Of a stretch of 64,000 nucleotides of DNA, positions 7,062-54,573 are shown piece after piece. The notes under the pieces were generated by a model that made no database searches, had not been told where the DNA came from, and saw nothing but the letters and a program-made list of their open reading frames with translations. The stretch is taken from contig JBAIZL010000001.1 in NCBI GenBank assembly GCA_036971475.1, positions 76,248,771 to 76,312,770 of the forward strand, in the 5' to 3' direction. This DNA comes from Prosapia bicincta (lineage: Eukaryota > Arthropoda > Insecta > Hemiptera > Cercopidae). The stretch's first letter is position 1. The number at the start of each line of letters is the position of its first letter. The position numbers and the translations under genes were made by a program.

Positions 7062-7097
7062 GAGGAAACGTTTTCGTCTTACGACTTCTTCAGCCTC
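7062..7097 (-). ncRNA. hammerhead ribozyme core, intact
   Basis: Read 5' to 3' on the minus strand: stem I GAGG, core CUGAAGA, a stem II hairpin of GUC with GAC and loop GUAA, then GAA, the self-complementary stem III AACGUU, U at the cleavage position, and CCUC closing stem I (four Watson-Crick pairs). Every conserved core position is present. Stem III is only 6 nt and palindromic, so it could form only between two molecules, as described for Penelope-type hammerheads. Stem II is short. Confidence 0.72.
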
Positions 7098-7228
7098 GTA
7101 TTTTTGCCGCTAGGATAATACTTCTTCCCTCGTATTTTCACACATACTTTTTTGATCACATCACTTCTAACTTTCAAAAAAATGGTACCGAGGAAGCATA
7201 ACAGCAGCATTCCTAGCGGCAAAAATAC

Positions 7229-7262
7229 GAGGCTAAGAAGTCGTAAGACGAAAACGTTTCCT
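7229..7262 (+). ncRNA. hammerhead core with a damaged CUGANGA box
   Basis: This is the mirror copy of the core at 7062-7097. Stem I GAGG/CCUC, stem II, GAA and AACGUU are kept, but the box reads CUAAGA, having lost the conserved G5. Activity is not expected. Confidence 0.6.
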
Positions 7263-7341
7263 CCAAGTGTAAGTTAACAATTACCAACTTTTAGTTAACA
7301 AATGTCTGGTCGCAAGTAATAGCAAAAGTGTAATTTACAAT

Positions 7342-7685
7342 TATTATATACGGGGTTTATATTAAACCTAATATTTAGTCATTATTTAGGCCCACAGTCT
7401 AGTAACTTAGTCATTAATATTATATTTTTGTTGTTGATATACTCTGTAAAATTTATTAGTAATTAGAATTTATTGATAGTTACAACTATTATATACGGGG
7501 TTTATATTAGGCCTATCGTTATTATTAGGGTAACCCCGGAAACATTAGATAGTATTATAGAAAAGTTATTTGTATTAGACACTGTGTAACAACATCGATA
7601 ATATGGTTTAGCTGCCAAGTGAGCCTTGTATAAAACCGATTTGACGTTGAATTTATGTTTTATGTTAAATATGTTTTACGATTTA
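7342..7685. repeat. short direct repeats beside the palindrome
   Basis: A block with GATAGTTACAA(C/T)TATTATATA followed by CGGGGTTTATATTA occurs just right of the palindrome (about 7336-7364) and again at about 7472-7512. A related GACAGTTACAATTATTATATA lies left of the palindrome at about 6925. The left and first right copies bracket the palindrome and could mark its insertion site. Confidence 0.4.
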
Positions 7686-7743
7686 TGTTGAATAAAAATA
7701 CGGTTGATTCATGGTTCAAGAATACTTAATTTATTAAACATTT

Positions 7744-7784
7744 GGCAAAGTTTCGACAGCTATATTGTTGCCCTCATTCAGGCG
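7744..7784 (-). ncRNA. hammerhead-like core, degenerate
   Basis: The minus strand reads CUGAAUGA (one base longer than CUGANGA), an imperfect stem II, then GAA, ACUU, U. The mirror copy at 8779-8819 has ACGU here, so the palindromic stem III has been lost by one substitution. Confidence 0.5.
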
Positions 7785-7884
7785 TACAAGTACAATAAAC
7801 AAAATTAACTTTGTCCAAAATATTCTAATATAAAATAAATAATATTACAATATACATTTAAGTTATTAACACCAATAAATTAAC

Positions 7885-7895
7885 ATTACAAATAA
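7885..7895. repeat. left target-site duplication of nested element
   Basis: ATTACAAATAA, identical to 8294-8304. The opposite arm of the host palindrome shows the equivalent unduplicated site. Confidence 0.75.
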
Positions 7896-8014
7896 TATAC
7901 AATATCAAGAGCGCAGTGGTACAATATATTACAAAAATATAGGTGAAAAAACATCAAAACCACAAAAATTAATCCAAAAAAAAAATAACTAAAATAAGTT
8001 ACCTAAGATTAAAT

Positions 8015-8055
8015 CCTTATGTAAATTTCGATGACAAAGTCATCATCTTCAGAGG
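8015..8055 (-). ncRNA. hammerhead ribozyme core, box intact
   Basis: Minus strand: CCU, CUGAAGA, a strong six-pair stem II (GAUGAC/GUCAUC, loop UUU), GAA, AUUUACAU, A, then AGG pairing with CCU. Stem III is one change away from the palindrome AUGUACAU seen in the partner copy at 8182-8222. Confidence 0.65.
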
Positions 8056-8181
8056 TTCCTATTACAAAAGTACAATCTAGAATACAAAAAATTAACAAAC
8101 TAGTTTGTTAAATGACCTTAGTTTGTTGTCAGTCTAGTTTTTTAATTTTTTGTATTCTAGATTGTACTTTTGTAATAGGAA

Positions 8182-8222
8182 CCACTGAAAATGATGACTT
8201 TGTCATCGAAATGTACATAAGG
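8182..8222 (+). ncRNA. hammerhead core with G8 to A change
   Basis: Plus strand: CUGAAAA in place of CUGANGA, the same perfect stem II as its partner, GAA, the self-complementary stem III AUGUACAU, then A. The conserved G8 is replaced by A, so this copy should be inactive. Confidence 0.6.
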
Positions 8223-8293
8223 ATTTAATCTTAGGTAACTTATTCTAGTTATTTTTTGATTAATTTTTGTGGTTTTGGGGTTTTTTCACCTAT

Positions 8294-8304
8294 ATTACAA
8301 ATAA
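8294..8304. repeat. right target-site duplication of nested element
   Basis: ATTACAAATAA, identical to 7885-7895. It overlaps by a base or so with the end of the palindromic arm. Confidence 0.75.
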
Positions 8305-8778
8305 CACAAATAATCATATTATATGTTTAAAAGCACACTATAAAAGTGATAGTCCATTAGAATGAAATCTTTAAAATATTTAGTAAAATAATTAAAATGT
8401 GTCGAAAAAATTTCTAAGCTTCATATCAATTAACGTCAACAACTTTTGAAATTTAGGCATAATCCGACGTTTCAGTTATTTAACATTACAATCTCTTAAT
8501 AAAGTATAAAAGAAGACACAACATGACTAATTTGACAATAGCAATACACAAATACCATAAATGATTTACAAAACCAAAATAGATAAATAGAAAATTCACA
8601 GACTGTTATAGTGTGCTCTTAATAATTTAATTTGATTATTTGTGTTGCTTGTAATGTTAAATTATTAGTATGTATATAATAATTAATGTATATTCTAATT
8701 GTAATAATATTTTTTTAATATTAATTTTGTATTAAAATGTTTTAGACATTACAGTTAATTTTGTCTATTATACTTGTA

Positions 8779-8819
8779 GGCCTGAATGAAGACAACAATA
8801 TAGTTGTCGAAACGTTGCT
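8779..8819 (+). ncRNA. hammerhead-like core with one-base insertion
   Basis: Plus strand: GGC, CUGAAUGA, a perfect six-pair stem II (GACAAC/GUUGUC), GAA, palindromic ACGU, U, then GCU pairing with GGC. Only the extra base in the CUGANGA box departs from the consensus. Confidence 0.55.
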
Positions 8820-8884
8820 GAATTTTTAAAAAAATTAAATATTCTTGACTCATGAATCAACCGTATTTTTATTCAACAAAAAAA

Positions 8885-10547: not shown

Positions 10548-11030
10548 ATGCCGTTCTACGTTGTAGCCGTAGACGTTTCACCCGTAACATATCATCCATT
10601 TTGTACCAAACTACGCTATCTTGTAACCAATCTCCTTATCTTGTACCATAACACCCCATCTTGTAAAATACCAACTAATCTTGTAATATGTCATACTATG
10701 TTCTCATGCTATACCAAAGTACCCTACCTTGTAACAGAACGCCTTATCTTGTGAAATATCATCCTATTTTATACTAGATCAGCTTATCTGTAAAACATCA
10801 CCTAGTTGTGTAATATATCACCCTATCTTGTACAACAGCCTTATCTATTAATATAATACCCTATTTTCTCATTTTATTACAAAGTTCCCTATCTTGCACC
10901 ATGTAATCCTATCTAGTAATATATCCCCTTTACTTGTAACATATCACCACTCCTAGTGCCAAATCACTTGCACCATGTAATTCTATCTAGTAACATATCA
11001 CCTATCTTGTATCATATTGCCATATTTTAC
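10548..11030. repeat. diverged left edge of the 78-bp satellite
   Basis: Words such as ATCTTGTAACATATCACC recur at about 20-30 bp spacing with many substitutions and indels. They correspond to single 26-bp subunits of the neighbouring 78-bp monomer. Diverged margins around a homogeneous core are the usual outcome of unequal exchange. Confidence 0.75.
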
Positions 11031-14000
11031 CATGTAATCGTATTTAGGAATGAAGCACCTTACCTAGTAACATATCACCTATCTTGTGTCATATTGCCAT
11101 ATTTTACCATGTAATCCTAAATAGGAACATACCGCCTTACCTAGTAACACATCCCTCTATCTTGTATCATATTGCCATATTTTACCATGTAATCCTAAAT
11201 AGGAACATACCGTCTTACCTAGTAACACATCCCTCTATCTTGTATCATATTGCCATATTTTACCATGTAATCCTAAATAGGAACATACCGCCTTACCTAG
11301 TAACACATCCCACTATCTTGTATCATATTGGCATATTTTACCATGTAATCGTATTTAGGAATGAAGCAAATTACCTAGAGACATATCACTTATCTTGTAT
11401 CATATTGCCTTATTTTATCATGTAATCCTAAATAGGAACATACCGCCTTACCTAGTAACACATCCCTCTATCTTGTATCATATTGCCATATTTTACCATG
11501 TAATCCTAAATAGGAACATACCGCCTTACCTAGTAACACACCCCTTTATCTTGTGTCACATTGCCTTATTTTACCATGTAATCCTAATTAGGAACATACC
11601 GCCTTACCTAGTAACACATCCCTCTATCTTGTATCATATTACCATATTTTACCATGTTATCGTATTTAGGAATAAAACACCTTACCTAGTAACATATCAC
11701 CTATCTTGTGTCATATTGCCATATTTTACCATGTAATCCTAAATAGGAACATACCGCCTTACCTAGTAACACATCCCTCCATCTAGTATCACATTGGCAT
11801 ATTTTACCATGTAATCGTATTTAGGAATGAAGCACCATACCTAGAAACATATCACTTATCTTTTATCATATTGCCTTATTTTACCATATAATCCTAATTA
11901 GGAAAATACCGCCTTACCTAGTAACACATCCCTCTATCTTGTATCATATTAAAATATTTTACCATGTTTTCGTATTTAGGAATGAAACACCTTACATAGT
12001 AACATATCACCTATCTTGTGTCATATTGCCATATTTTACCATGTAATCCTAAATAGGAACATACCGCCTTACCTAGTAACACATCCCTCTTTCTTGTATC
12101 ATATTGCCATATTTTACCATGTAATCCTAAATAGGAACATACCGTCTTACCTAGTAACACATCCCTCTATCTTGTATCATATTGGCATATTTAACCATGT
12201 AATCGTATTTAGGAATGAAGCACCTTACCTAGAACCATATCACTTATCTTGTATCATATTGCCTTATTTTACCATGTAATCCTAAATAGGAACATACCGC
12301 CTTACCTAGTAACACATTCCTCTATCTTGTATCATATTACCATATATTACCATGTTATCGTATTTAGGAATGAAACACCTTACCTAGTAACATATCACCT
12401 ATCTTGTGTCATATTGCCATATTTTACCATGTAATCCTAAATAGGAACATACCGCCTTACCTAGTAACACATCCCTCTATCTTGTATCATATTGCCATAT
12501 TTTACCATGTAATCCTGAATAGGAACATACCGCCTTACCTAGTAACACATCCCTCTATCTTGTATCATATTACCATATTTTACCATGTAATCGTATTTAG
12601 GAATGAAGCACCTTACCTAGTAACATATCACCTATCTTGTATCATATTGTCATATTTTACCATGTAATCCTAAATAGGAACATACCGCCTTACCTAGTAA
12701 CACATCCCTCTATCTTGTATCATATTACCATATTTTACCATGTAATCGTATTTAGGAATGAAGCACCTTACCTAGTAACATATCATCTATCTTGTATCAT
12801 ATTGCCATATTTTACCATGTAATCTTAAATAGGAACATACCGCCTTACCTAGTAACACATCCCTCTATCTTGTATCATATTGGCATATTTTACCATGTAA
12901 TCGTATTTAGGAATGAAGCACCTTACCTAGAAACATATGACTTATCTTGTATCATATTGCCTTATTTTACCATGTAATCCTAAATAGGAACATACCGCCT
13001 TACCTAGTAACACATCCCTCTATCTTGTATCATATTACCATATTTTACCATGTTATCGTATTTAGGAATGAAACACCTTACCTAGTGACATATCACTTAT
13101 CTTGTCTCATATTGCCATATTTAACCATGTAATCCTAAATAGGAACATACCGCCTTACCTAGTAACACATCCCTCTATCTTGTATCATATTGCCATATTT
13201 TACCATGTAATCCTAAATAGGAACATACCGCCTTACCTAGTAACACATCCCTCTATCTTGTATCATATTGCTATATTTTACCATGTAATCCTAAATAGGA
13301 ACATACCGCCTTACCTAATAACATATCCCACTATCTTGTATCATATTACCATATTTTACCATGTAATCGTATTTAGGAATGAAGCACCTTACCTAGTAAC
13401 ATATCACCTATCTTGTATCATATTGCCATATTTTACCATGTAATCCTAAATAGGGACATACCGCCTTACCTAGTAACACATCCCTCTATCTTGTATCATA
13501 TTACTATATTTTACCATGTTATCGTATTTAGGAATGAAGCACCTTACCTAGTAACACATTCCTCTATCTTGTGTCATATTACCATATTTTACCATGTATT
13601 CGTATTTAGAAATGAAACACCTTACCTAGTAACATATCACTTATCTTGTCTCATATTGCCATATTTTACCATGTAATCCTAAATAGGAACATACCGCCTT
13701 ACCTAGTAACACATCCCTCTATCTTGTATCATATTGCCATATTTTACCATGTAATCCTAAATAGGAACATACCGCCTTACCTAGTAACACATCCCTCTAT
13801 CTTGTATCATATTGCTATATTTTACCATGTAATCCTAAATAGGAACATACCGCCTTACCTAATAACACATCCCACTATCTTGTATCATATTACCATATTT
13901 TACCATGTAATCGTATTTAGGAATGAAGCACCTTACCTAGTAACATATCACCTATCTTGTATCATATTGCCATATTTTACCATGTAATCCTAAATAGGAA

Positions 14001-16130
14001 CATACCGCCTTACCTAGTAACACATCCCTCTATCTTGTATCATATTACCATATTTTACCATGTAATCGTATTTAGGAATGAAGCACCTTACCTAGTAACA
14101 TATCACCTATCTTGTATCATATTGCCATATCTCACCATGTAATCTTAAATAGGAACATACCGCCTTACCTAGTAACACATCCCTCTATCTTGTATCATAT
14201 TGGCATATTTTACCATGTAATCGTATTTAGGAATGAAGCACCTTACCTAGAAACATATCACTTATCTTGTATCATATTGCCTTATTTTACCATGTAATCC
14301 TAAATAGGAACATACCGCCTTACCTAGTAACACATCCCTCTATCTTGTATCATATTACCATATTTTACCATGTTATCGTATTTAGGATTGAAACACCTTA
14401 CCTAGTAACATGTCACCTATCTTGTGTCATATTGCCATATTTTACCATGTAATCCTAAATAGAATCATACCGCCTTACCTAGTAACACATCCCTCTATCT
14501 TGTATCATATTACCATATTTTACCATGTTATCGTATTTAGGATTGAAACACCTTACCTAGTAACATGTCACCTATCTTGTGTCATATTGCCATATTTTAC
14601 CATGTAATCCTAAATAGAAACATACCGCCTTACCTAGTAACACATCCCTCTATCTTGTATCATATTACCATATTTTACCATGTTATCGTATTTAGGAATG
14701 AAACACCTTACCTAGTAACATATCACCTATCTTGTGTCATATTGCCATATTTTATCATGTAATCCTAAATAGGAACATACCGCCTTACCTAGTAACACAT
14801 CCCTTCATCTTGTATCATATTTGCCATATTTTACCATGTAATCCTAAATAGGAACATACCGCCTTACCTAGTAACACATCCCTCTATCTTGTAGCATATT
14901 GCCATATTTTACCATGTAATCCTAAATAGGGACATACCGCCTTACCTAGTAACACATCCCTCTATCTTGTATCATATTACTATATTTTACCATGTTATCG
15001 TATTTAGGAATGAAGCACCTTACCTAGTAACACATTCCTCTATCTTGTGTCATATTACCATATTTTACCATGTATTCGTATTTAGAAATGAAACACCTTA
15101 CCTAGTAATACATCCCTCTATCTTGTATCATATTACCATATTTTACCATGTAATCGTATTTAGGAATGAAGCACCTTACCTAGTAACATATCACCTATCT
15201 TGTATCATATTGCCATATCTTACCATGTAATCTTAAATAGGAACATACCGCCTTACCTAGTAACACATCCCTCTATCTTGTATCATATTGGCATTTTTTA
15301 CCATGTAATCGTATTTAGGAATGAAGCACCTTACCTAGAAACATATCACTTATCTTGTATCATATTGCCTTATTTTACCATGTAATCCTAAATAGGAACA
15401 TACCGCCTTACCTAGTAACACATCCCTCTATCTTGTATCATATTACCATATTTTACCATGTAATCGTATTTAGGAATGAAGCACCTTACCTAGTAACATA
15501 TCACCCATCTTGTATCATATTGCCATATTTTACCATGTAATCCTAAATAGGAACATACCGCCTTACCTAGTAACACATCCCTCTATCTTGTATCATATTG
15601 CCATATTTTACCATGTAATCCTTAATAGGAACATACCGCCTTACCTAGTAACACATCCCACTATCTTGTATCATATTGGCATATCTTACCATGTAATCGT
15701 ATTTAGGAATGAAGCACCTTACCTAGGGACATATCACTTATCTTGTATCATATTGCCTTATTTTATCATGTAATCCTAAATAGGAACATACCGCCTTACC
15801 TAGTAACACATCCCTCTATCTTGTATCATATTGCCATATTTTACCATGTAATCCTAAATAGGAACATACCGCCTTACCTACTAACACATCCCTCTATCTT
15901 GTATCATATTAAAATATTTTACCATGTTATCGTATTTAGGATTGAAACACCTTACCTAGTAACATGTCACCTATCTTGTGTCATATTGCAATATTTTACC
16001 ATGTAATCCTAAATAGGAACATACCGCCTTACCTAGTAACACATCCCTCTATCTTGTATCATATTACCATATTTTACCATGTTATCGTATTTAGGAATGA
16101 AACACCTTACCTAGTAACATATCACCTATC
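11030..16130. repeat. 78-bp satellite, mixed A/B monomer zone
   Basis: Two monomer types alternate. Type A (78 bp) holds CCTAAATAGGAACATACCGCC. Type B (77 bp) holds CGTATTTAGGAATGAAGCACC, and its TATCACCTATC segment is one base shorter than the A counterpart. Common orders are AB (155 bp), AAB (233 bp) and AAAB (311 bp). Because B is 77 bp, each B shifts the reading frame, so open frames here break into pieces of about 61, 87 or 113 codons. Confidence 0.93.
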
Positions 16131-19100
16131 TTGTGTCATATTGCCATATTTTACCATGTAATCCTAAATAGGAACATAAAGCCTTACCTAGTAACACATC
16201 CCTCCATCTTGTATCATATAGCCATATTTTACCATGTAATCCTAAATAGGAACATACCGCCTTACCTAGTAACACATCCCTCTATCTTGTATCATATTAC
16301 CATATTTTACCATGTATTCGTATTTAGAAATGAAACACCTTACCTAGTAATACATCCCTCTATCTTGTATCATATTGCCATTTTTTATCATGTAATCCTA
16401 AATAGGAACATACCGCCTTACCTAGTAACACATCCCTCTATCTTGTATCATATTGCCATATTTTACCATGTAATCCTAAATAGGAACATACCGCCTTACC
16501 TAGTAACACATCCCTCTATCTTGTATCATATTGCCATATTTTACCATGTAATCCTAAATAGGAACATACTGCCTTACCTAGTAACACATCCCTCTATCTT
16601 GTATCATATTGCCATATTTTACCATGTAATCCTAAATAGGAACATACCGCCTTACCTAGTAACACATCCCTCCATCTTGTATCATATTGCCATATTTTAC
16701 CATGTAATCCTAAATAGGAACATACCGCCTTACCTAGTAACACATCCCTCTATCTTGTATCATATTGCCATATTTTACCATGTAATCCTAAATAGGAACA
16801 TACCGCCTTACCTAGTAACACATCCCTCTATCTTGTATCATATTGCCATATTTTACCATGTAATCCTAAATAGGAACATACCGCCTTACCTAGTAACACA
16901 TCCCTCTATCTTGTATCATATTGCCATATTTTACCATGTAATCCTAAATAGGAACATACCGCCTTACCTAGTAACACATCCCACTATCTTGTATCATATT
17001 GGCATATTTTACCATGTAATCGTATTTAGGAATGAAGCACCTTACCTAGGGACATATCACTTATCTTGTATCATATTGCCTTATTTTATCATGTAATCCT
17101 AAATAGGAACATACCGCCTTACCTAGTAACACATCCCTCTATCTTGTATCATATTGCCATATTTTACCATGTAATCCTAAATAGGAACATACCACCTTAC
17201 CTAGTAACACATCCCTCTATCTTGTATCATATTGCCATATTTTACCATGTAATCCTAAATAGGGACATACCGCCTTACCTAGTAACACATCCCTCTATCT
17301 TGTATCATATTACTATATTTTACCATGTTATAGTATTTAGGAATGAAGCACCTTACCTAGTAACACATTCCTCTATCTTGTGTCATATTACCATATTTTA
17401 CCATGTATTCGTATTTAGAAATGAAACACCTTACCTAGTAATACATCCCTCTATCTTGTATCATATTGCCATTTTTTACCATGTAATCCTAAATAGGAAC
17501 ATACCGCCTTACCTAGTAACACATCCCTCTATCTTGTATCATATAGCCATATTTTACCATGTAATCCTAAATGGGAACATACCGCCTTACCTAGTAACAC
17601 ATCCCTCTATCTTGTATCATATTGCCATATTTTACCATGTAATCCTAAATAGGGACATACCGCCTTACCTAGTAACACATCCCTCTATCTTGTATCATAT
17701 TGCCATATTTTACCATGTAATCCTAAATAGAAACTTACCGCCTTACCTAGTAACACATCCCTCTATCTTGTATCATATTGCCATATTTTACCATGTAATC
17801 CTAAATAGGAACATACCGCCTTACCTAGTAACACATCCCTCTATCTTGTATCATATTGCCATATTTTACCATGTAATCCTAAATAGGAACATACCGCCTT
17901 ACCTAGTAACACATCCCTCTATCTTGTATCATATTGCCATATTTTACCATGTAATCCTAAATAGGAACATACCGCCTTACCTAGTAACACATCCCTCTAT
18001 CTTGTATCATATAGCCATATTTTACCATGTAATCCTAAATGGGAACATACCGCCTTACCTAGTAACACATCCCTCTATCTTGTATCATATTGCCATATTT
18101 TACCATGTAATCCTAAATAGGAACATACCGCCTTACCTAGTAACACATCCCTCTATCTTGTATCATATTGCCATATTTTACCATGTAATCCTAAATAGGA
18201 ACATACCGCCTTCCCTAGTGACACATCCCTCTATCTTGTATCATATTACCATATTTTACCATGTATTCGTATTTAGAAATGAAACACCTTACCTAGTAAT
18301 ACATCCCTCTATCTTGTATCATATTGCCATTTTTTATCATGTAATCCTAAATAGGAACATACCGCCTTACCTAGTAACACATCTCTCTATCTTGTACAAT
18401 ATAGCCATATTTTACCATGTAATCCTAAATAGAAACTTACCGCCTTACCTAGTAACACATCCCTCTATCTTGTATAATATTGCCATATTTTACCATGTAA
18501 TCCTAAATAGGAACATACCGCCTTACCTAGTAACACATCCCTCTATCTTGTACAATATAGCCATATTTTACCATGTAATCCTAAATAGGAACATACCGTC
18601 TTACCTAGTAACACATCCCTCTATCTTGTATAATATTGCCATATTTTACCATGTAATCCTAAATAGAAACTTACCGCCTTACCTAGTAACACATCCCTCT
18701 ATCTTGTATCATATTGCCATATTTTACCATGTAATCCTAAATGGGAACATACCGCCTTACCTAGTAACACATCCCTCTATCTTGTATCATATAGCCATAT
18801 TTTACCATGTAATCCTAAATAGGAACATACCGCCTTACCTAGTAACACATCCCTCTATCTTGTATCATATTGCCATATTTTACCATGTAATCCTAAATAG
18901 GAACATACCGCCTTACCTAGTAACACATCCCTCTATCTTGTATCATATAGCCATATTTTACCATGTAATCCTAAATAGGAACATACCGCCTTACCTAGTA
19001 ACACATCCCTCTATCTTGTACAATATAGCCATATTTTACCATGTAATCCTAAATAGGAACATACCGCCTTACCTAGTAACACATCCCTCTATCTTGTACA

Positions 19101-26225: not shown

Positions 26226-27537
<1,312 letters not shown>

Positions 27538-37853: not shown

Positions 37854-37896
37854 ACTCATACGCGTTTCAGTGACAAAGTCATCATCATCAGTAAGT
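37854..37896 (-). ncRNA. hammerhead ribozyme core, intact
   Basis: Minus strand: stem I ACUUA, core CUGAUGA, stem II (GAUGAC with GUCACU, one mismatch and one wobble), GAA, the palindromic stem III ACGCGU, A at the cleavage position, and UGAGU closing stem I with five pairs. Its stem II matches the cores at 8.0-8.2 kb but its stem III differs. There is no obvious mirror copy within the next kilobase. Confidence 0.7.
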
Positions 37897-39183: not shown

Positions 39184-39363
39184 TTAAATACGTTTTCTTG
39201 TTTAATAATTTAAAACAACACAGGTTATTCAAATACAAGAATATTTATTATTTTAAATCCAAAGCTTTTCGTTGGCAAACAGTACCAACATCATCAGGAA
39301 TGAAAATTACAATCTTCAGGATTTAAAATAATAAATATTCTTGTATTTGAATAACCTGTGTTG

Positions 39364-39368
<5 letters not shown>
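39179..39368. mobile_element. hammerhead palindrome inserted in (AT)n
   Basis: The arms at 39212-39260 and 39319-39367 are perfect reverse complements over about 48 bp. A single hammerhead core lies between them. The left segment AATATTAAATACGTTTTC-TGTT is shared with the start of the palindrome at 41.6 kb, so both belong to one family. Both sides abut (AT)n. Confidence 0.75.
39257..39301 (-). ncRNA. hammerhead ribozyme core, intact
   Basis: Minus strand: stem I AUUC, core CUGAUGA, stem II (GUUGG with CCAAC, 9-10-nt loop), GAA, palindromic stem III AAGCUU, U, then GGAU closing stem I with one wobble pair. All core positions match the consensus. Confidence 0.72.
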
Positions 39369-39438: not shown

Positions 39439-40148
39439 ACAATGTTTCAATCGTTAATAAAATACGTTTTGATTGACCAATCAAGTTCAAATAAATTTTT
39501 TCAAACCTGTTGTAATTGACAATTGATGTTAACAGAGTTTTTTCAAATATTTATTCATTAATTTAAATTTTAAAAAACTGATGTCACGGGTCGGATTCGA
39601 AATGAGTGACTATATTTTTGAAATGCTGCACATTGGCACTGAAGCTAATTTCCAATAGCTAGAAACCTATTACTTATGGAAGTATATGCTATAAGAGAAA
39701 TGTTCCTTGCAATAGTGAAGCAAGGCCATTGCTAGAGGTGGATAGAATGAGAGGTTATAGACCACCACCAGCTTCGTAAATTAGAAACAAAAAAAGAAGG
39801 CGATAAATATTAACAAATAAAAATAATAGTCCAACACCATATATTTTACAAAGAGGAAAATGGAAAATTGCAAGGAAATTCGTTTTCTATTTTACTACTT
39901 TATATTGTGATTCTGTCATATGTATATAGATATTTATAGTAATTTTAATTACGAAATAAAAAGAAACTAAAATAAAATTTTCGTTGTCTACCTCAGTAGT
40001 AATTGACTTTAAAAATTATTTTTTACATTACTTGTTACTTAGTGAATAGTTCAAAAAGACTAATGCTTGACAGGTATTTAAACTTGAAAATACGAGTATA
40101 ACCTGAACGTAGAAAACGTATGAACTGATAACTTTTTATAAAACTGGG

Positions 40149-40208: not shown

Positions 40209-40212
<4 letters not shown>

Positions 40213-40434
40213 TGATTTGAGTTATTTTGCATTCGAGGCATACATTTTTATTTTTTGTAACAAAATACATCCTAACCGATACTTTTAAAATATACAAAAT
40301 TTTTAAAAAAATTACTATCACTATGTTAAACTTCTTAATTTAGTATCTACTTTAAAATTATCGATTAGGATGTATTTTGTTACAAAAAATAAAAAGTTAT
40401 GGCTTAAACGCAAAATACCTCAAATCACACTATA
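40209..40434. mobile_element. palindromic element between AT tracts, no ribozyme seen
   Basis: The left arm, starting AGTATGATTTGAG(T)TATTTTGC, and the right arm, ending GCAAAATACCTCAAATCACACT, are reverse complements. The best-matched part (TTTGTAACAAAATACATCCTAA) is identical and the match extends to a centre near 40321. (AT)n lies on the left and an AT-rich GT/AT microsatellite on the right. No CUGANGA-GAAA pair is present. Confidence 0.75.
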
Positions 40435-41454: not shown

Positions 41455-41627
<173 letters not shown>

Positions 41628-41710
41628 ATATCAAATATGTTTTCCTGTTAGAATTATTTTTAAGATTAAATAATATACACTAATTACAGTAATAATTTAT
41701 TGAATAATAC

Positions 41711-41755
41711 ACTCAAAGCTTTTCGTTGGTTGAGATAACCAACATCCTCAGGAAT
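41711..41755 (-). ncRNA. hammerhead ribozyme core, intact
   Basis: Minus strand: AUUC, CUGAGGA, a seven-pair stem II (GUUGGUU/AACCAAC, loop AUCUC), GAA, palindromic AAGCUU, U, GAGU closing stem I (four pairs including one wobble). This is the best-formed stem II in the window. Confidence 0.75.
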
Positions 41756-41888
41756 TACAATATTAATGACAAAAGAACTGTCTAACAAATATGAAGCTAC
41801 TAGATAAAGCATTACAATGCTAAAGCTAATGCTTTATCTAGTAGCTTCATATTTGTTAGACAGTTCTTTTATCATTCTTAGTATTGTA

Positions 41889-41933
41889 ATTCCTGAGGAT
41901 GTTGGTAAAGTCAACCAACGAAAAGCTTTGAGT
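41889..41933 (+). ncRNA. hammerhead ribozyme core, intact
   Basis: Mirror copy: AUUC, CUGAGGA, stem II (GUUGG/CCAAC with an extended loop), GAA, AAGCUU, U, GAGU. It differs from its partner mainly in the stem II loop. Confidence 0.75.
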
Positions 41934-41979
41934 GTATTATTCAATAAATTATTCCTGTAATTAGTGTATATTATTTAAT

Positions 41980-41982
<3 letters not shown>

Positions 41983-42020
<38 letters not shown>

Positions 42021-42206: not shown

Positions 42207-42209
<3 letters not shown>

Positions 42210-42952
42210 GGACACATTCAATTCAATAATTCTTAAGTTGACGTTAGTAAACTTAATTTTATTTTTTAACCTATCCTAACTGCATACTTTATACCTAGCC
42301 TATATTTGATTACACTTTTTTAATTTTATTTAAATAGTGCGTCATATAGTCTACTGAAGCATTGCTTGCTAAAGTAGGCCTATCGTGCTCCTAATATCAG
42401 ATTATGTGTATATACGATGATTAATGTACGCTTTAAACGTTATTTATAATTTCCTATATTTAAAATGTACACACCTTATTTCTAAAACTGTATAAAACAA
42501 CTGTGGCGTAATATTTTACATAAATAAATGCTATACCACAAATAACTTTTTTTTCTTTTATTTAAAACATTAGAGGTTTTTAATATAAGAAAAACGTTAT
42601 ATGTGGCACAGAAGTTACCTTATTTCTGTTAAAAATGTATTTTTTAGAGGAACATCTAAAACGGAAAATACTGATATTTTTAATAGTTGTCTGTCCAATA
42701 TTTATCAAGTAATTTCAATAAACTATAATTCCATACCAGACGAGGGAAACCTTTAACAGATGACTAAATCAGATGTTTATAAACTGAAATGCACCTGAGT
42801 CGATTATTTGAGCACGTTATAAGTAATGTCGATCTTTGCCATTACAACAAGGTTAGGTTGGATATAGCATTGTTTATAAATCTCTTGTGGGAAAGTTAGG
42901 TATTGTTTTGCAACTTAATTCCTTATAAGTTTGATATGAACGCATTATGCAC

Positions 42953-42996
<44 letters not shown>

Positions 42997-43690: not shown

Positions 43691-46620
43691 AATATTAATG
43701 TAACAGTATGGAACTTTTTCTAGAGGATTTATGGGAGATATTGTGAGTTCGCGTAGTCAGGGCTACGTACTTTAAATTAGAAGATTGTATGTAGCCCACG
43801 AGGTATAGGGCAGTGATGGCATATAAGGATTTTTGTAGCGGTATGGAACCTTTAGTGAAGGATGTAGGGGAGATATTGTGAGATCGCTTAGTCATGGCCA
43901 CGCACCTTAAGTAGACGATTGTAGCCTTCGAGGTATAGGGCAGTGATGTTGACATATAAGAATTTATGTTGCGGTATGGAAACGTTGGAGAGGATATAGG
44001 GGAGATATTGTGACATCGCGTAGTCAGAACCACGCACCTAAAATATAAGATAGTAGCCTATGATGTATAGGGCAGTGATGTTGACATATAAGGATTTATG
44101 TTGCGGTATGGAAACGTTGGAGAGGATATAGGGGAGATATTGTGACATCGCGTAGTCAGAACCACGCACCTAAAATATAAGATAGTAGCCTATGATGTAC
44201 AGGGCAGTGATGTTGGCATATAAGAATATATGTTACGGTATGGAATCTTTAGTGGAGGATGTAGGGGAGGTATTGTGAGATCGCGTAGTCAGAACCACGC
44301 ACCTAAAATATAAGATAGTAGCCTATGATGTACAGGGCAGTGATCTTGGCATATAAGAATATATGTTACGGAATGGAATCTTTAGTGGAGGATGTAGGGG
44401 AGGTATTGTGAGATCGCGTAGTCAGAACCACGCACCTAAAATATAAGAAAGTAGCCTATGATGTACAGGGCAGTGATGTTGGCATATAAGAATATATGTT
44501 ACGGTATGGAATCTTTAGTGGAGGATGTAGGGGAGGTATTGTGAGATCGCGTAGTCATGGCAACGCACCTTAAGTAGAAGGTAGTAGCCTTCGAGGTATA
44601 AGTCAGTGATGTTGGCATATAAGGATTTATGTAGCGGTTTGGAACCTTTAGTGGGGGATGTAGGGGAGGTATTGTGACATCGCGTAGTCATGGCAACGCA
44701 CCTTAAGTAGAAGGTAGTAGCCTTCGAAGTATAAGTCAGTGATGTTGGCATATAAGGATTTATGTAGCGGTTTGGAACCTTTAGTGGAGGATGTAGGGGA
44801 GGTATTGTGACATCGCGTAGTCATGGTAACGCACCTTAAGTAGAAGGTAGTAGCCTTCGAGGTATAAGTCAGTGATGTTGGCATATAAGGATTTATGTAG
44901 CGGTTTGGAACCTTTAGTGGAGGATGTAGGGGAGGTATTTTTACATCGCCTAGTCAGGACCACGCACCTTAAGTAGAAGATTATTATTGCCTAGGAGGTA
45001 TAGGCTAGTATTGTTGGCATATAAAGATTTATGTAGCGGTATGGAACCTTTGGTACAGGCTATAGGGGTGATATTGTGACATCGCGTAGTCATGGCAACG
45101 CACCTTAAGTAGAAGGTAGTAGCCTTCGAGGTATAAGTCAGTGATGTTGGCATATAAGGATTTATGTAGCGGTTTGGAACCTTTAGTGGAGGATGTAGGG
45201 GAGGTATTTTTACATCGCCTAGTCAGGACCACGCACCTTAAGTAGAAGATTATTATTGCCTGGGAGAATATAGGCCAGTATTGTTGGCATATAAAGATTT
45301 ATGTAGCGGTATGGAACCTTTGGTACAGGCTATAGGGGTGATATTGTGACATCGCGTAGTCATGGCAACGCACCTTAAGTAGAAGGTAGTAGCCTTCGAG
45401 GTATAAGTCAGTGATGTTGGCATATAAGGATTTATGTAGCGGTTTGGAACCTTTAGTGGAGGATGTAGGGGAGGTATTGTGACATCGCGTAGTCATGGTA
45501 ACGCACCTTAAGTAGAAGGTAGTAGCCTTCGAGGTATAAGTCAGTGATGTTGGCATATAAGGATTTATGTAGCGGTTTGGAACCTTTAGTGGAGGATGTA
45601 GGGGAGGTATTTTTACATCGCCTAGTCAGGACCACGCACCTTAAGTAGAAGATTATTATTGCCTAGGAGGTATAGGCTAGTATTGTTGGCATATAAAGAT
45701 TTATGTAGCGGTATGGAACCTTTGGTACAGGCTATAGGGGTGATATTGTGACATCGCGTAGTCATGGCAACGCACCTTAAGTAGAAGGTAGTAGCCTTCG
45801 AGGTATAAGTCAGTGATGTTGGCATATAAGGATTTATGTAGCGGTTTGGAACCTTTAGTGGAGGATGTAGGGGAGGTATTTTTACATCGCCTAGTCAGGA
45901 CCACGCACCTTAAGTAGAAGATTATTATTGCCTAGGAGGTATAGGCTAGTATTGTTGGCATATAAAGATTTATGTAGCGGTATGGAACCTTTGGTACAGG
46001 CTATAGGGGTGATATTGTGGCATCGCGTAGTCATGGCAACGCACCTTAAGTAGAAGGTAGTAGCCTTCGAGGTTTAAGTCAGTGATGTTGGCATATAAGG
46101 ATTTATGTAGCGGTTTGGAACCTTTAATGGAGGATGTAGAGGAGGTATTTTGACATCGCCTAGTCAGGGCCACGCACCTTAAGTAGAAGATTATTATTGC
46201 CTAGGAGGTATAGGCTAGTATTGTTGGCATATAAGGATTTATGTAGCGGTTTGGAACCTTTAGTGGAGGATGTAGAGGAGGTATTTTGACATCGCCTAGT
46301 CAGGACCACGCACCTTAAGTAGAAGATTATTATTGCCTAGGAGGTATAGGCTAGTATTGTTGGCATATAAAGATTTATGTAGCGGTATGGAACCTTTGGT
46401 ACAGGCTATAGGGGTGATATTGTCTCATCGCGTAGTCATGGCAACGCACCTTAAGTAGAAGGTAGTAGCCTTCGAGGTTTAAGTCAGTGATGTTGGCATA
46501 TAAGGATTTATGTAGCGGTTTGGAACCTTTAGTGGAGGATGTAGAGGAGGTATTTTGACATCGCCTAGTCAGGGCCACGCACCTTAAGTAGAAGATTATT
46601 ATTGCCTGGGAGAATATAGG
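43690..46620. repeat. 133-bp satellite, diverse zone
   Basis: The word CATCGC(G/C)TAGTCA recurs every 131-140 bp from about 43750. Units share GGCATATAA(G/A)GATTTATGTAGCGG and ACGCACCTTAAGTAGAAG. At least three unit classes alternate: those with GTAGCCTTCGAGGTATAAGTCA, those with TTATTATTGCCTAGGAGGTATAGGC, and an older class with CTAAAATATAAGATAGTAGCC on the left. Minus-strand frames of 60-114 codons are repeat by-products. Confidence 0.94.
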
Positions 46621-48412
46621 CCAGTATTGTTGGCATATAAGGATACATGTAGCGGTATGAAACCTTTGGAAGATGATATAGGGGAGGTATTGTGACATCG
46701 CGTAGTCAGGGCAACGCATCTAAAGTAGAAGATTATTATTGCCTGGGAGAATATAGGCCAGTATTGTTGGCATATAAGGATACATGTAGCGGTATGAAAC
46801 CTTTGGAAGATGATATAGGGGAGGTATTGTGACATCGCGTAGTCAGGGCAACGCATCTAAAGTAGAAGATTATTATTGCCTGGGAGAATATAGGCCAGTA
46901 TTGTTGGCATATAAGGATACATGTAGCGGTATGAAACCTTTGGAAGATGATATAGGGGACAATACTTATTGTGACATCGCGTAGTCAGGGCAACGCATCT
47001 AAAGTAGAAGATTATTATTGCCTGGGAGAATATAGGCCAGTATTGTTGGCATATAAGGATACATGTAGCGGTATGAAACCTTTGGAAGATGATATAGGGG
47101 AGGTATTGTGACATCGCGTAGTCAGGGCAACGCATCTAAAGTAGAAGATTATTATTGCCTGGGAGAATATAGGCCAGTATTGTTGGCATATAAGGATACA
47201 TGTAGCGGTATGAAACCTTTGGAAGATGATATAGGGGACAATACTTATTGTGACATCGCGTAGTCAGGGCAACGCATCTAAAGTAGAAGATTATTATTGC
47301 CTGGGAGAATATAGGCCAGTATTGTTGGCATATAAGGATACATGTAGCGGTATGAAACCTTTGGAAGATGATATAGGGGAGGTATTGTGACATCGCGTAG
47401 TCAGGGCAACGCATCTAAAGTAGAAGATTATTATTGCCTGGGAGAATATAGGCCAGTATTGTTGGCATATAAGGATACATGTAGCGGTATGAAACCTTTG
47501 GAAGATGATATAGGGGACAATACTTATTGTGACATCGCGTAGTCAGGGCAACGCATCTAAAGTAGAAGATTATTATTGCCTGGGAGAATATAGGCCAGTA
47601 TTGTTGGCATATAAGGATACATGTAGCGGTATGAAACCTTTGGAAGATGATATAGGGGACAATACTTATTGTGACATCGCGTAGTCAGGGCAACGCATCT
47701 AAAGTAGAAGATTATTATTGCCTGGGAGAATATAGGCCAGTATTGTTGGCATATAAGGATACATGTAGCGGTATGAAACCTTTGGAAGATGATATAGGGG
47801 AGGTATTGTGACATCGCGTAGTCAGGGCAACGCATCTAAAGTAGAAGATTATTATTGCCTGGGAGAATATAGGCCAGTATTGTTGGCATATAAGGATACA
47901 TGTAGCGGTATGAAACCTTTGGAAGATGATATAGGGGACAATACTTATTGTGACATCGCGTAGTCAGGGCAACGCATCTAAAGTAGAAGATTATTATTGC
48001 CTGGGAGAATATAGGCCAGTATTGTTGGCATATAAGGATACATGTAGCGGTATGAAACCTTTGGAAGATGATATAGGGGAGGTATTGTGACATCGCGTAG
48101 TCAGGGCAACGCATCTAAAGTAGAAGATTATTATTGCCTGGGAGAATATAGGCCAGTATTGTTGGCATATAAGGATACATGTAGCGGTATGAAACCTTTG
48201 GAAGATGATATAGGGGACAATACTTATTGTGACATCGCGTAGTCAGGGCAACGCATCTAAAGTAGAAGATTATTATTGCCTGGGAGAATATAGGCCAGTA
48301 TTGTTGGCATATAAGGATACATGTAGCGGTATGAAACCTTTGGAAGATGATATAGGGGACAATACTTATTGTGACATCGCGTAGTCAGGGCAACGCATCT
48401 AAAGTAGAAGAT
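46620..48412. repeat. same satellite, homogenised zone with 279-bp double units
   Basis: Units of two lengths mostly alternate: one with GGGGAGGTATTGTGAC and one with GGGGACAATACTTATTGTGAC, giving a near-identical 279-bp pair (46857-47135, 47136-47414, 47557-47835, 47836-48114 are equivalent). Occasionally two long units are adjacent (near 47515-47660). Near identity across about 1.8 kb implies recent amplification; the array stops abruptly at 48412. Confidence 0.94.
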
Positions 48413-49047
48413 TGTATTCTGTTTAGCGGTTGTGTTTGTGTTGTTATGATTGCTTTTACGTATTCTCGTTAACATGTGTAGAATTTTCTGACAGCGTGTA
48501 AAAGCACGAAATGATGGGACTAAGTCGATAGTCTTTCGAAATGTCCGTCCTTATTTAGACAAGAAGTAAGTGCTAGAAAATGCAGGTGTTTCATATTGAT
48601 AGCAAAATTCCTGTATAACATTAACTCATTCTTGTGAGTCGATAGTTGATGTGTTTTTCAAACCGTCAGTTATGATTGCGATAAAAAGTAGTTGCTGTTA
48701 CAGTTTCTACTAAGTGGTATTATATGCAAGTGTTTCTATACTGATGTATGTTAAAGTGCTTTTGTTTCCTTTATATTTGCTTCTCGATTTACAACAGCAA
48801 CAGCTGACCGTTCTGATTTGTTGGGCAAATTAGATTCTTATCTAATTTCGGGGGGAGTAAATTGACGTCGAGCTGCAGGAAGCCGACGGGTAGATACAAG
48901 GCTGCCGGAATGCGAGATAAACTTCTAATGACTTTTTTGAGTACAGGCAATTTCACTTTATTGCGAAAAGAGTGGAATTTATTTTGCATTATTGCAATTT
49001 TTCATTCTTTTCGCATCAAGTCTGCTTTTTATCTCAATTTGTCTCAA
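48413..49047. other. unannotated DNA
   Basis: Two overlapping short frames on opposite strands (48789-49056) lack motifs. Nothing else is recognised. Confidence 0.45.
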
Positions 49048-49330
49048 AACAAGTGATATAAAAAAAATTAAAGTCATTACCTACTTTAGTAAAAAAAAAA
49101 TTATTTTAGTTACTATTTATTAAATAATAACAAATAATAAAAATATGTATATACTTTTAGCCATATTAAGTGCCAAAATAGAAAGCCAAATTAGTTATTG
49201 CATTTAAATAAAGATTTAATATTTGTAAAAACTGTATTAACATCAAGTGTCATCCACTAAATGTATTAAAAATGTATTTTAAATTGAGTGGATGAATAAA
49301 AAGTATTTTATTAATGACTAAAGATATACA

Positions 49331-49416
<86 letters not shown>

Positions 49417-49490: not shown

Positions 49491-49499
49491 GATGGCACG

Positions 49500-51760
49500 G
49501 CAGAATTCGTAATGATTCTGTAATATCGCGTTGCGTAATAATACTGTAGCATTGTGCTGTGCATCGAGACTGTACTATCGAGTTACGTAATAAAACTGTA
49601 GTATTGTGTTCCGTAATGATTATGTAGTATCGCGTTGCGTAATAATACTGTAGTATTGGGATGCGTAATGATACTATGGTATTGCGTTGCGTTATGATAC
49701 TGTAGAATCGGGTTGCGTAATAACCCTGTAGTATCGTTTTGCCAAAATATACTATAGTATTGTGTTGCGTAATAATACTGTAGTATTGGGATGCGTAATG
49801 ATATTATAGCATTGCGTTGCGTTATGATACTGTAGAATCGGGTTGCGTAATAACCCTGTAGTATCGTTTTGCCTAAATATACTATAGTATTGTGTTGCGT
49901 AATAATACTGTAGTATTGGGATGCGTAATGATACTATGGTATTGCGTTGCGTTATGATACTGTAGAATCGGGTTGCGTAATAACCCTGTAGTATCGTTTT
50001 GCCAAAATATACTATAGTATTGTGTTGCGTAATAATACTGTAGTATTGGGATGCGTAATGATACTATAGCATTGCGATGCGTTATGATACTGTAGAATCG
50101 GGTTGCGTAATAACCCTGTAGTATCGTTTTGCCTAAATATACTATAGTATTGTGTTGCGTAATAATACTGTAGTATTGGGATGCGTAATGATACTATAGC
50201 ATTGCGTTGCGTTATGATACTGTAGAATCGGGTTGCGTAATAACCCTGTAGTATCGTTTTGCCTAAATATACTATAGTATTGTGTTGCGTAATAATACTG
50301 TAGTATTGGGATGCGTAATGATACTATGGTATTGCGTTGCGTTATGATACTGTAGAATCGGGTTGCGTAATAACCCTGTAGTATCGTTTTGCCAAAATAT
50401 ACTATAGTATTGTGTTGCGTAATAATACTGTAGTATTGGGATGCGTAATGATACTATAGCATTGCGTTGCGTTATGATACTGTAGAATCGGGTTGCGTAA
50501 TAACCCTGTAGTATCGTTTTGCCAAAATATACTATAGTATTGTGTTGCGTAATAATACTGTAGTATTGGGATGCGTAATGATACTATGATATTGCGTTGC
50601 GTTATGATACTGTAGAATCGGGCTGCGTAATGATTCAGTAGTATCGGGTTGCGTAATAACCCTGTAGTATCGTTTTGCCTAAATATACTACAGTATTCTG
50701 TTGCGTAATAATACTGTAGTATTGGGATGCGTAATGATACTATAGCATTGCGTTGCGTTATGATACTGTAGAATCGGGCTGCGTAATGATTCTGTAGTAT
50801 CGGGTTGCGTAATAACCCTGTAGTATCGTTTTGCCTAAATATACTATAGTATTGGGTTGCGTATTAATACTGTAGTATTGGGATGCGTAATGATACTATA
50901 GCATTGCGTTGCGATATGATACTGTAGAATCGGGCTGCGTAATGATTATGTAGTATCGTTTTGCCTAAATATACTATAGTATTGGGTTGCGTATTAATAC
51001 TGTAGTATTGGGATGCGTAATGATACTATAGCATTGCGTTGCGTTATGATACTGTAGAATCGGGCTGCGTAATGATTCTGTAGTATCGGGTTGCGTAATA
51101 ACCCTGTAGTATCGTTTTGCCTAAATATACTATAGTATTGGGTTGCGTATTAATACTGTAGTATTGGGATGCGTAATGATACTATAGATTGCGTTGCGTT
51201 ATGATACTGTAGAATCGGGCTGCGTAATGATTCTGTAGTATCGGGTTGCGTAATAACCCTGTAGTATCGTTTTGCCTAAATATACTATAGTATTGGGTTG
51301 CGTATTAATACTGTAGTATTGGGATGCGTAATGATACTACAGCATTGCGTTGCGTAATAATATTGTAGTATCGGGCTGCGTAATGATTCTGTAGTATCGA
51401 GTTGCGTAAAAGTAATGTAGTATCAACTTGACTAAATATATTGTACTATTGTGTTGCGTAATGATATTGTATTATCGGGTTGAGTAACGACACTGTGGTA
51501 TCGTTTTGAATAAATATACTATAGTACTGCGTTGCGTTATGATACTGTAGAATCGGGCTGCGTAATGATTCTGTAGTATCGGGTTGCGTATTAACCCTGT
51601 AGTATCATTTTGCCTAAATATACTATAGTATTGTGTTGCGTAATAATACTGTAGTATTGTGTTGCATAATGATTCTGTAGTATTGTTTTGCGTAATGATT
51701 CTGTAGTATCGGGTTGCGTAATAAAACTGTATTATCAACTTACCTAAAGATATTTTAGTA
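49500..51760. repeat. 130-bp higher-order satellite on a 26-bp unit
   Basis: The base unit is about 26 bp, of the form GTAGTATCGGGTTGCGTAAT plus GATACT. Five variants make a 130-bp higher-order unit: ATTGCGTTGCG starts at 49681, 49811, 49941, 50071 (as ATTGCGATGCG) and 50201. After about 50600, added TGCGTAATGATT-TGTAGTATCGGG subunits lengthen the period to about 156 bp. Confidence 0.93.
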
Positions 51761-53440
51761 TTGTGTTGCGTAATGATACTGTAGTATCGCGTAGCATATT
51801 AACAATGTAGTATTGTGTTGCGTAATGATGCTGTAGTATCGCGTTGCATATTATCAATGTAGTATTGTGTTGCGTAATGATACTGTAGTATCGCGTTGCA
51901 TATTAACAATGTAGTATTGTGTTGCGTAATGATACTGTAATATCGCGTTGCATATTATCAATGTAGTATTGTGTTGCGTAATGATACTGTAGTATCGCGT
52001 AGCATATTAACAATGTAGTATTGTGTTGCGTAATGATAATAATATAGTATCGCGTTGCGTATTATCAATGTAGTATTGTGTTGTGTAATGATACTGCAGT
52101 ATCGCGTTGCATAATAACAACGTAGTATTGTGTTGCGTAATGATAATAATATAGTATCGTGTTGCGTATTATCAATGTAGTATTGTGTTGCGTAATGATA
52201 CTGTAGTATCGCGTTGCATATTAACAATGTGATATTGTATTGCGTAATGATGCTGTAATAACGAGTTGCGTATTAATAATGCAGTATTGTGTTGCGTAAT
52301 GATACTGTAGTATCACGTTGCATATTAACAATGTAGTATTGTGTTGCGTAATGATACTGTAGTATCGCGTTGCATAATAACAATATAGTATTGTGTTGCG
52401 TAATGATAATAATATAGTATCGCGTTGCGTATTATCAATGTAGTATTGTGTTGCGTAATGATAATGTAGTATCGCGTGGCATATTAACAATGTAGTATTG
52501 TGTTGCGTAATGATAATAATATAGTATCGCGTTGCGTATTATCAATGTAGTATTGTCTTGTGTAATGATACTGCAGTATCGCGTTGCATAATAACAACGT
52601 AGTATTGTGTTGCGTAATGATAATAATATAGTATCGCGTTGCGTATTATCAATGTAGTATTGTGTTGTGTAATGATACTGCAGTATCGCGTTGCATAATA
52701 ACAACGTAGTATTGTGTTGCGTAATGATAATAATATAGTATCGTGTTGCGTATTATCAATGTAGTATTGTGTTGCATAATGATACTGTAGTATCGCGTTG
52801 CATATTAACAATGTGATATTGTATTGCGTAATGATGCTGTAATAACGAATTGCGTATTAATAATGCAGTATTGTGTTGCGTAATGATACTGTAGTATCAC
52901 GTTGCATATTAACAATGTAGTATTGTGTTGCGTAATGATACTGTAGTATCGCGTTACATAATAACAATATAGTATTGTGTTGCGTAATGATAATAATATA
53001 GTATCGCGTTGCGTATTATCAATGTAGTATTGTGTTGCGTAATGATAATGTAGTATCGCGTTGCATATTAACAATGTAGTATTGTGTTGCGTAATGATAA
53101 TAATATAGTATCGCGTTACGTATTATCAATGTAGTATTGTGTTGCGAATTGATACTGTAGTGTCGCATTGCATATTAACAACGTGGTATTGTGTTGCGTA
53201 ATGATAATAATATAGTATCGCATTGCGTATTATCAATGTAGTATTGTGTTGCGTAATGATACTGTAGTATCGCATTGCATATTAATAATGATTATCGGGT
53301 TGTGTATCAATGCTATAGTATTTTGTATATTAATAATACTGTAGTATCGGGTTGCGTAATGATAATCTAGTATAAAGTTTAGTATTAGTTATGTAGTATC
53401 GGGTTGTGTATCAATGCTGTAGTAGTGCAGTACAAACTGG
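51760..53440. repeat. 107-bp higher-order satellite on the same 26-bp unit
   Basis: Same GTAGTATTGTGTTGCGTAATGA base unit, but the higher-order pattern is now about 107 bp (e.g. 52435 to 52542), four subunits with a TAATAATA insertion in one. A 584-bp block (52221 and 52805) is duplicated almost exactly. Both ends of the array diverge. Confidence 0.92.
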
Positions 53441-54530
53441 ATATCAGTTATAACAATTTATTAAATCTGGTTATATAAACAGCCTTTGTGCCTTAAGGTA
53501 TAATATTATCATTTTAAGATATACATTTTTTTAAATAGCAAGGAAATTATTTTTATGATAACTTAATTTATTTATTTTATTGTATAGAAGTTTTATTGCA
53601 GAACATTTCTTTCTTTTGTTCTAATTCCGATTAGAATAATATAAACACATTAATAGAAAAATTATGTCCCACTCTATTTAAGGGCAGTTTTTTTTTAATA
53701 CGATTGTAGTAATTTTATGTTGTTTCAATTTTTACTTACAATTTCTTTCTTCATTTGTAATAACTGAACCATATTGAAAATTGATTTGTGAAGTAATACT
53801 AACCTCGTACTCTGTAAATATACTTGGAAAACTCGTGGGAAATCTTTGAAGCCGGAAAAATCAAAGTAATCACGAAGACTAGAGAATGCGTTATTTCATC
53901 TCCTGGAAAACTAAGAACATTTGGATTTCCCGAGTGTATTAAAATATTACAACATATAAACTTTATTATAAGTCTAATGAAATACTCACTTCAAAAATAT
54001 TACGTAATAAAACGTTCTGCTTTGTTCTAACAATATTTAACAAACAATGTATGGAAGCTCACAAAAACCCCAGAAATCTTGAACAAAATCCGTGTTAAAT
54101 GCAGAAAGTCTAGAAACTAATTTTGCAGGCATTGACAGTGAAAAATACAAACACGCTTGGTCGGGGACAAATACAAATTGTTGAAGGAAATTAAAATGCC
54201 GTCACTCGGCTGGGACCCGCCACGCTGGCATTATTTCGTGTTCACAAGAGGAAGTATGTTTAAAATATAGCAACATGTTCAGGTATGTAGAGGCAAGTTA
54301 ACTTTGCAACCAATTCTGTGACGTCACAAGTGGACTTTATATCTTCGCTTTGTCTTTGTCTATAGAAAAGCACAGTGCCGTAAAATTTACATAGGATTCT
54401 AAAAACTACGAAAATAACTATAATATATTTACTCCTTACAGGAAAATAAAATAACTTATTTAATTCTTTAGTACGACTAAATATGTAAAACAATATAAAT
54501 TATATTATACAGCAAAAAAGTCTTTCATGC
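53441..54530. other. unannotated AT-rich DNA
   Basis: Short frames at 53824-54030 (plus) and 54260-54493 (minus) have no recognisable motif. Confidence 0.45.
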
Positions 54531-54573
54531 TGTAAGACATGTTTCAGCAGCTACGTAGTCATCTTCAGTGACA
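54531..54573 (-). ncRNA. hammerhead ribozyme core
   Basis: Minus strand: UGUCA, CUGAAGA, a weak stem II (GAC-UACGUA-GCU type), GAA, palindromic stem III ACAUGU, C at the cleavage position, and UUACA closing stem I with one mismatch. The core boxes match the consensus but stem II is poor. No mirror copy is visible nearby. Confidence 0.55.

Follow-up and report, generated by a model that had tools for sequence, protein, structure and literature searches.

Hammerhead-like motifs with an extra core nucleotide in head-to-head insertions of Prosapia bicincta, probably of Penelope-like origin

What kind of element would disperse small hammerhead-like motifs, most of them with a self-complementary sequence in place of the stem III hairpin, over a single region of an insect genome? 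The question is raised by a 64,000-nucleotide (nt) stretch of DNA from Prosapia bicincta (Hemiptera; Cercopidae) – assembly GCA_036971475.1, contig JBAIZL010000001.1, positions 76,248,771 to 76,312,770 of the forward strand, referred to here as the window – for which a preliminary description made from the letters alone had proposed hammerheads that pair through stem III in the manner of Penelope-like elements. Ten of the 11 units recognized here lie on the outward-facing arms of palindromic insertions as inverted pairs, a layout of which the earlier account made no mention, and the unit at 37891 is solitary (Table 1). The insertions, E1 to E6, are probably dispersed copies, lacking an open reading frame (ORF), of several Penelope-like families with minimal type I hammerheads, each formed by head-to-head copies of a short terminal unit (a pseudo-long terminal repeat, pLTR).

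Minimal type I hammerheads of Penelope-like elements were reportedly described by Cervera and de la Pena in 2014 and by Luense, Weinberg and Breaker in 2017. As far as the accessible accounts of such ribozymes go, they share with the units of the window the type I form, the lack of a real stem III, a short self-complementary stem III, a location in terminal repeats and a proposed action as dimers. They are arranged in tandem, whereas the units here face outward on opposite strands and, wherever the core is intact, contain an additional U or A.

Exact CTGANGA was mapped over both strands of the window, and units are named by the position of C3 and the strand. The motif occurs at 19 sites, seven of which are inside hammerhead-like units. 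The 11 units – 7093-, 7233+, 8052-, 8185+, 8782+, 7781-, 37891-, 39297-, 41751-, 41893+ and 54568- – are mostly on the minus strand. Such units are indeed present at the places given in the preliminary description, although its figure of at least nine CUGANGA cores was too high, because exact CTGANGA is present in seven of the 11. The other four are mutated: the core of 8185 reads CTGAAAA, that of 7233 is short by one base, and those of 8782 and 7781 both read CTGAATGA. The two degenerate extra cores noted earlier, at 7229 and 61406, correspond to 7233 and to a degenerate unit, additional to the 11, within a Penelope-like flank.

Cores were counted in the window and in 200 order-2 Markov shuffles as CTGANGA with a stem II of three or more base pairs and GAAA, on either strand and whatever the state of stem III. 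In five cores of the window a single extra nucleotide separates A9 from stem II (shuffle mean 0.14, maximum 2), and none has the canonical form without it (shuffle mean 0.115, maximum 2), so that the canonical reading given to the cores at the outset has to be replaced by one in which each intact core has an extra nucleotide. In four of these five, stem III is a palindrome and the base after it is not G, and the fifth (8052) is one base short of a palindrome. When the stem III palindrome and stem I were also demanded, four exact cores remained in the window and none in 60 shuffles, although 41751, 41893 and 39297 are members of one family and not independent; shuffled controls had been named from the start as a check, and they favor the motif. 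With one core mismatch allowed, the numbers are five in the window and a shuffle mean of 0.083 (maximum 1). The single match in a looser canonical scan, 32956-, was taken as a chance occurrence because it reads GAACC and has no palindrome. A sequence at 5176 on the minus strand, CTGAAGATGTA...TAC and then AGATTTAG, is reminiscent of a decayed unit of this type; no inverted partner was seen.

Pairing within and between families is the main evidence, and it supports the view that a hammerhead fold has been kept while its letters have changed. The 5′ strand of each family was compared with its own 3′ strand and with those of the other families, using one representative for each of six families, of which that of E2 has a damaged core. 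Stem I pairing is 0.83 within families and 0.32 across them (permutation p 0.0014), the inner pairs of stem III score 1.00 and 0.45 (p 0.003), and stem II, the weakest of the three, 0.83 and 0.65 (p 0.028). Stem III is self-complementary in nine of the 11 units – with palindromes as different as AACGTT, ACGCGT, AAGCTT and ACATGT – the exceptions being 8052 and 7781. The base after stem III is non-G in all 11, and A15.1-U16.1 with a non-G H17 is kept in the ten units compared (all except 7233). The preliminary description had noted that the palindrome differs between families while self-complementarity is retained and that stem I pairs in most copies. Stem II does not form in 54568 and is only partly intact in 37891, and minimum-energy monomer folds of both E5 units place stems I and II where expected. 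When the units are aligned with MAFFT, E1 is misplaced, as is the GAA in copies with a long loop.

The extra nucleotide is U in E2, S37, E4, E5 and E6, A in E1 and E3R, and G in the degenerate E3L; in every unit with an intact core it is U or A. The E3 cores have a second insertion, after A6, of a kind reported elsewhere, in the portion of the source available, to lower hammerhead activity. One extra nucleotide between A9 and G10.1 is also present in the plus-strand hammerhead of Chrysanthemum chlorotic mottle viroid, where, according to the accessible part of that work (PMC3705267), the position is occupied by A; U there raised the trans-cleaving rate 3-4-fold, A lowered it moderately, and C or G was harmful. 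The restriction of intact cores to U and A matches the two bases tolerated in the viroid, which is a point in favor of Penelope-type hammerheads, although the viroid ribozyme, as described in the same text, is monomeric and has a normal stem III.

A9, the extra U and G10.1 together spell ATG in four of the six families, 24-28 nt ahead of the predicted cut. In the Anolis element PAc the beginning of the ORF coincides with that of stem II, C3 and G8 lying ahead of it and the cut falling 26 bp downstream, a geometry that an extra nucleotide would fit. By analogy, the extra U may serve to make a start codon, and PAc possibly has it too. Reading frames from the core ATG in the window stop within 12 codons, and these families therefore encode no protein from it. 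If the extra core nucleotide is general, it links ribozyme and start codon and would explain why standard models miss such copies.

The insertions themselves are best delimited in E1, the one case with a clean target duplication, whose joined flanks align across the junction to a paralogous empty site with a score of 84 (maximum 49 in 300 shuffled controls). E2 is flanked by an 11-bp direct repeat, ATTACAAATAA, at 7885-7895 and 8294-8304, and a longer duplication is possible. One arm extends further at its 3′ end, by a tail of about 45 nt in E1 and of 25-30 nt in E4, and E2 may have such a tail as well; counted 3′ of A9, short arms end at 77-103 nt and long arms at 107-150 nt. Runs of (TA)n lie on both sides of E4 and of E7, a neighboring element, and on one edge of E5. 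The sequence common to both arms of E4 begins right after the predicted cut (39260, 39319), in one case among seven inverted pairs, and the arms of E5 have six aligned mismatches (41805-41900), three of them no more than 4 nt from loop II (P 0.015).

E7 is a Penelope-like element related to proteins with reverse transcriptase (RT) and GIY-YIG endonuclease domains. Its alignments with such RT/GIY-YIG proteins reach 52%, and the nearest among the matches listed are insect records at about 50%; its Pfam GIY-YIG score of 19.3 is below the cut-off of 22.6, and the RT is largely truncated. Its inverted flanks are 87% alike over 63 bp. No RT/GIY-YIG ORF was found in E1 to E6, 24 relatives matching the window at 61622-62620 and nowhere else, and no relatives of the RT/GIY-YIG protein were confirmed in viral and genome contig collections. 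E1 to E6 nevertheless have a Penelope-type anatomy of inverted pLTR-like arms, an optional 3′ tail and an AT-rich target, with a target duplication that is clean in E1 only. In PAc, reverse transcription starts 111-118 nt into the ORF, the optional tail is 30-40 nt, AT-rich DNA is preferred, and both strands are cut and extended. Rotifer Penelope elements have head-to-head inverted pLTRs with an optional 31-bp tail on one of the two, variable target duplications and junction palindromes; they differ in that the ORF is mostly kept, and ribozymes are never mentioned (0 occurrences) in the available text (PMC3846280). The arm ends, tails and AT-rich targets of E1 to E6, and the ATG in the core of four of the six families, agree with this published geometry and so support a Penelope-type origin. 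A repeat-type hammerhead of Aedes aegypti similarly has a palindromic stem III and loop III with a proposed dimeric conformation, although its loop III belongs to a longer stem, as far as the accessible part of the report goes (PMC3088659).

Table 1. Hammerhead-like units, insertions and associated features in the 64,000-nt window
Feature	Position	Strand	Description	Basis
E1 target duplication, left copy	6930..6945		16 bp, TTACAATTATTATATA	
E1 palindromic insertion	6946..7334		389 bp; two outward-facing units; left arm longer by 3′ tail	Inverted repeat 82%, arm alignment
E1L core	7066..7093	-	C3 to base before cut; extra A; stem III AACGTT; stem I 4/5 pairs	
E1R partner	7233..7259	+	Core short of one base; stem III AACGTT	
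E1 target duplication, right copy	7335..7350		16 bp, TTACAATTATTATATA	
Empty site	7468..7515		Paralogue of E1 target without insertion	
E3 outer inverted pair	7682..8882		7682-7908 and 8632-8882, split by E2	
E3L partner	7747..7781	-	Degenerate; stem III ACTT	
E2 palindromic insertion	7896..8293		Nested in E3; edges approximate	Inverted repeat, arm alignment
E2L core	8018..8052	-	Extra U; stem II 6 bp; stem III ATTTACAT, one mismatch from palindrome	
E2R core	8185..8219	+	CTGAAAA (G8 changed); extra U; stem III ATGTACAT	
E3R unit	8782..8816	+	CTGAATGA; extra A; stem II 6 bp; stem III ACGT	
S37 solo unit	37859..37891	-	Extra U; stem III ACGCGT; stem I 5/5 pairs; stem II weakened; no inverted partner found	
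E4 palindromic insertion	39185..39368		Between (TA)n runs; right arm from 39319	
E4L core	39261..39297	-	Extra U; stem II 7 bp; stem III AAGCTT	
E5 palindromic insertion	41655..41989		Arms ~91% identical; (TA)n at right edge	
E5L core	41715..41751	-	Extra U; stem III AAGCTT	
E5R core	41893..41929	+	Extra U; stem III AAGCTT	
E6 palindromic insertion	54486..54691		Old; arms 67% alike	
E6L core	54536..54568	-	Extra U; stem III ACATGT; stem II not formed	
E7 Penelope-like element	61357..62599	-	5′-truncated RT/GIY-YIG; inverted flanks 61357-61416 and 62537-62599, (TA)n beyond both	
Hammerhead-like remnant	near 61406		Degenerate; in E7 flank	

Several observations weigh against a Penelope-type hammerhead interpretation. 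E1 to E6 share no sequence with E7, so that their Penelope origin is argued from anatomy, and the PAc ribozyme needed protein for cleavage, its mutation leaving insertion in vitro unaffected. Three palindromes in the window (40210-40430, 42525-42617 and 55321-55400) have no core, and inverted structure alone is therefore not diagnostic. Among the units, no E2 copy is free of damage to core or palindrome, 54568 has no stem II, and G occupies the extra position of E3L. The six families were partly selected through the palindromes of the preliminary description, although the count of five cores ignores stem III. The Rfam search proposed at the outset gave no hammerhead match at the gathering threshold or at E ≤10 over the window, nor on 101 nt around 41893; in our own reading, these models presuppose a closed stem III and a core without the additional base. 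(Low-E Rfam microRNA matches sit on (TA)n or long inverted arms, with scores under gathering.) In minimum-energy co-folds of two copies, the palindrome pairs between the two strands in only four of the 11 units, and we regard free-energy co-folding as not informative as a test of dimers.

Among other origins, an unlikely one is that the insertions are foldback DNA transposons or resemble miniature inverted-repeat transposable elements (MITEs), with nested hairpins or palindromes in their terminal inverted repeats and the hammerhead likeness a by-product. Inverted termini are typical of such elements, the window has a coreless palindromic element in (TA)n at 40210-40430, and the arms of E5 are nearly symmetric; however, neither the unequal, tailed arms of E1 and E4 nor a 16-bp target duplication would be expected of transposase ends, and the covariation of stem I across families falls exactly at the hammerhead position. 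Metazoan retrozymes – non-autonomous elements that give rise to small circular RNAs through their type I hammerheads – are considerably less probable still. Short, AT-rich, ORF-less elements with type I hammerheads and units within the size range given in the available descriptions would suit them, but in those descriptions retrozymes occur as tandem repeats, with helices of canonical form and loop contacts, whereas the units here are inverted and minimal, without a stem III hairpin, and no tandem repeats with a canonical type I hammerhead were found in the window.

Chance matches in AT-rich, repeat-rich DNA can hardly account for the whole set. The degenerate units 7781, 54568 and 61406 would not stand alone, and two core patterns do recur across 2.9 million viral contigs, where the extra-nucleotide form was found in 31 stretches and the canonical form in 60 (64 matches). 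Nearly all of these have no stem I pairing, at least three pairs being formed in two and one respectively, and no useful relatives were among them. The exact full matches of the window, with none in the shuffled windows, and the covariation speak against chance, even with three of the units in one family.

We therefore return to Penelope-like families. The motifs, their covariation, the inverted layout, the E1 target duplication with its empty site and the RT/GIY-YIG neighbor can all be read from the DNA, and from these we infer transcription, cleavage by dimers and mobilization by a Penelope protein. The unit would have a core of CUGANGA, U or A, stem II and GAA, with a 4-8 nt palindrome replacing the stem III hairpin. 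Template RNA would be transcribed from source copies, and a Penelope-type RT/GIY-YIG protein would cut both strands of AT-rich DNA and prime reverse transcription on each strand about 80-140 nt 3′ of the ribozyme core; joining of the two complementary DNAs head to head would give the palindromic insertion. Cleavage just 3′ of the palindrome would occur when two RNAs, in trans or in tandem transcripts, pair through it.

Where such a dimer could form is constrained by the layout. At each inverted-pair locus the two ribozymes are on opposite strands and a transcript holds one sense copy, which in the E1 and E5 transcripts is predicted to be locked inside one long hairpin. No tandem sense copies on one RNA were seen, all pairs found in the window being inverted. 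These copies are therefore unable to form a two-ribozyme dimer in cis, and dimers would have to arise by pairing in trans or from source copies outside the window. The original proposal of Penelope-type hammerheads able to pair through a palindromic stem III fits the covariation, the insertion anatomy and the RT/GIY-YIG neighbor, whereas the cores are non-canonical, the units inverted and the palindrome paired in a minority of co-folds. The action of the palindrome would then be intermolecular or confined to source copies, and its place may be a complex that brings two templates to the target, which would also account for the head-to-head products. For rotifers, self-priming has been proposed for such palindromes in the available part of PMC3846280; here, the start of the E4 arm after the predicted cut and the clustering of E5 mismatches at loop II lean toward two templates.

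Dimer-type hammerheads and inverted pLTRs of Penelope elements are already known; the extra U or A in each intact core and the ORF-less head-to-head layout are less expected, and their combination was not found in the open-licence literature. The role of minimal Penelope hammerheads is described in print, in the portion available, as unknown, and the coincidence of dimer-type ribozymes with two-template head-to-head insertions makes one role testable, namely pairing of two template RNAs by the palindrome. A more speculative form of this proposal, which we think unlikely, is that the palindromic stem III is a dimer linkage of two integration templates in one Penelope complex, each reverse-transcribed from one cut strand, so that a palindromic insertion would be the record of an RNA dimer. 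The E4 arm would then start as if one template had been cut, the E5 arms would differ as if made from two slightly different RNAs, and the extra U would be the middle base of an AUG in the core, with ribozyme and start codon constraining each other.

Tandem repeats make up, by eye, about half of the window. A 12-kb array of a 78-bp satellite (10987-23274) is readable as a 2063-aa frame, which is probably not a gene because 78 is a multiple of three, and other large arrays with differing units lie at 43694-48413, 49508-53373 and 55441-60269. A dispersed repeat is present in three copies (27528-28019, 39451-40036 and 49048-49317), two of which adjoin (TA)n runs neighboring E4. The palindromic element at 40210-40430, without a hammerhead core, has symmetric ends between (TA)n runs and a MITE-like look. 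A long interspersed nuclear element (LINE) at 33610-37225 encodes endonuclease, reverse transcriptase and RNase H in two overlapping frames, and its nearest proteins among the matches listed, one of them from a psyllid, are about 52% identical.

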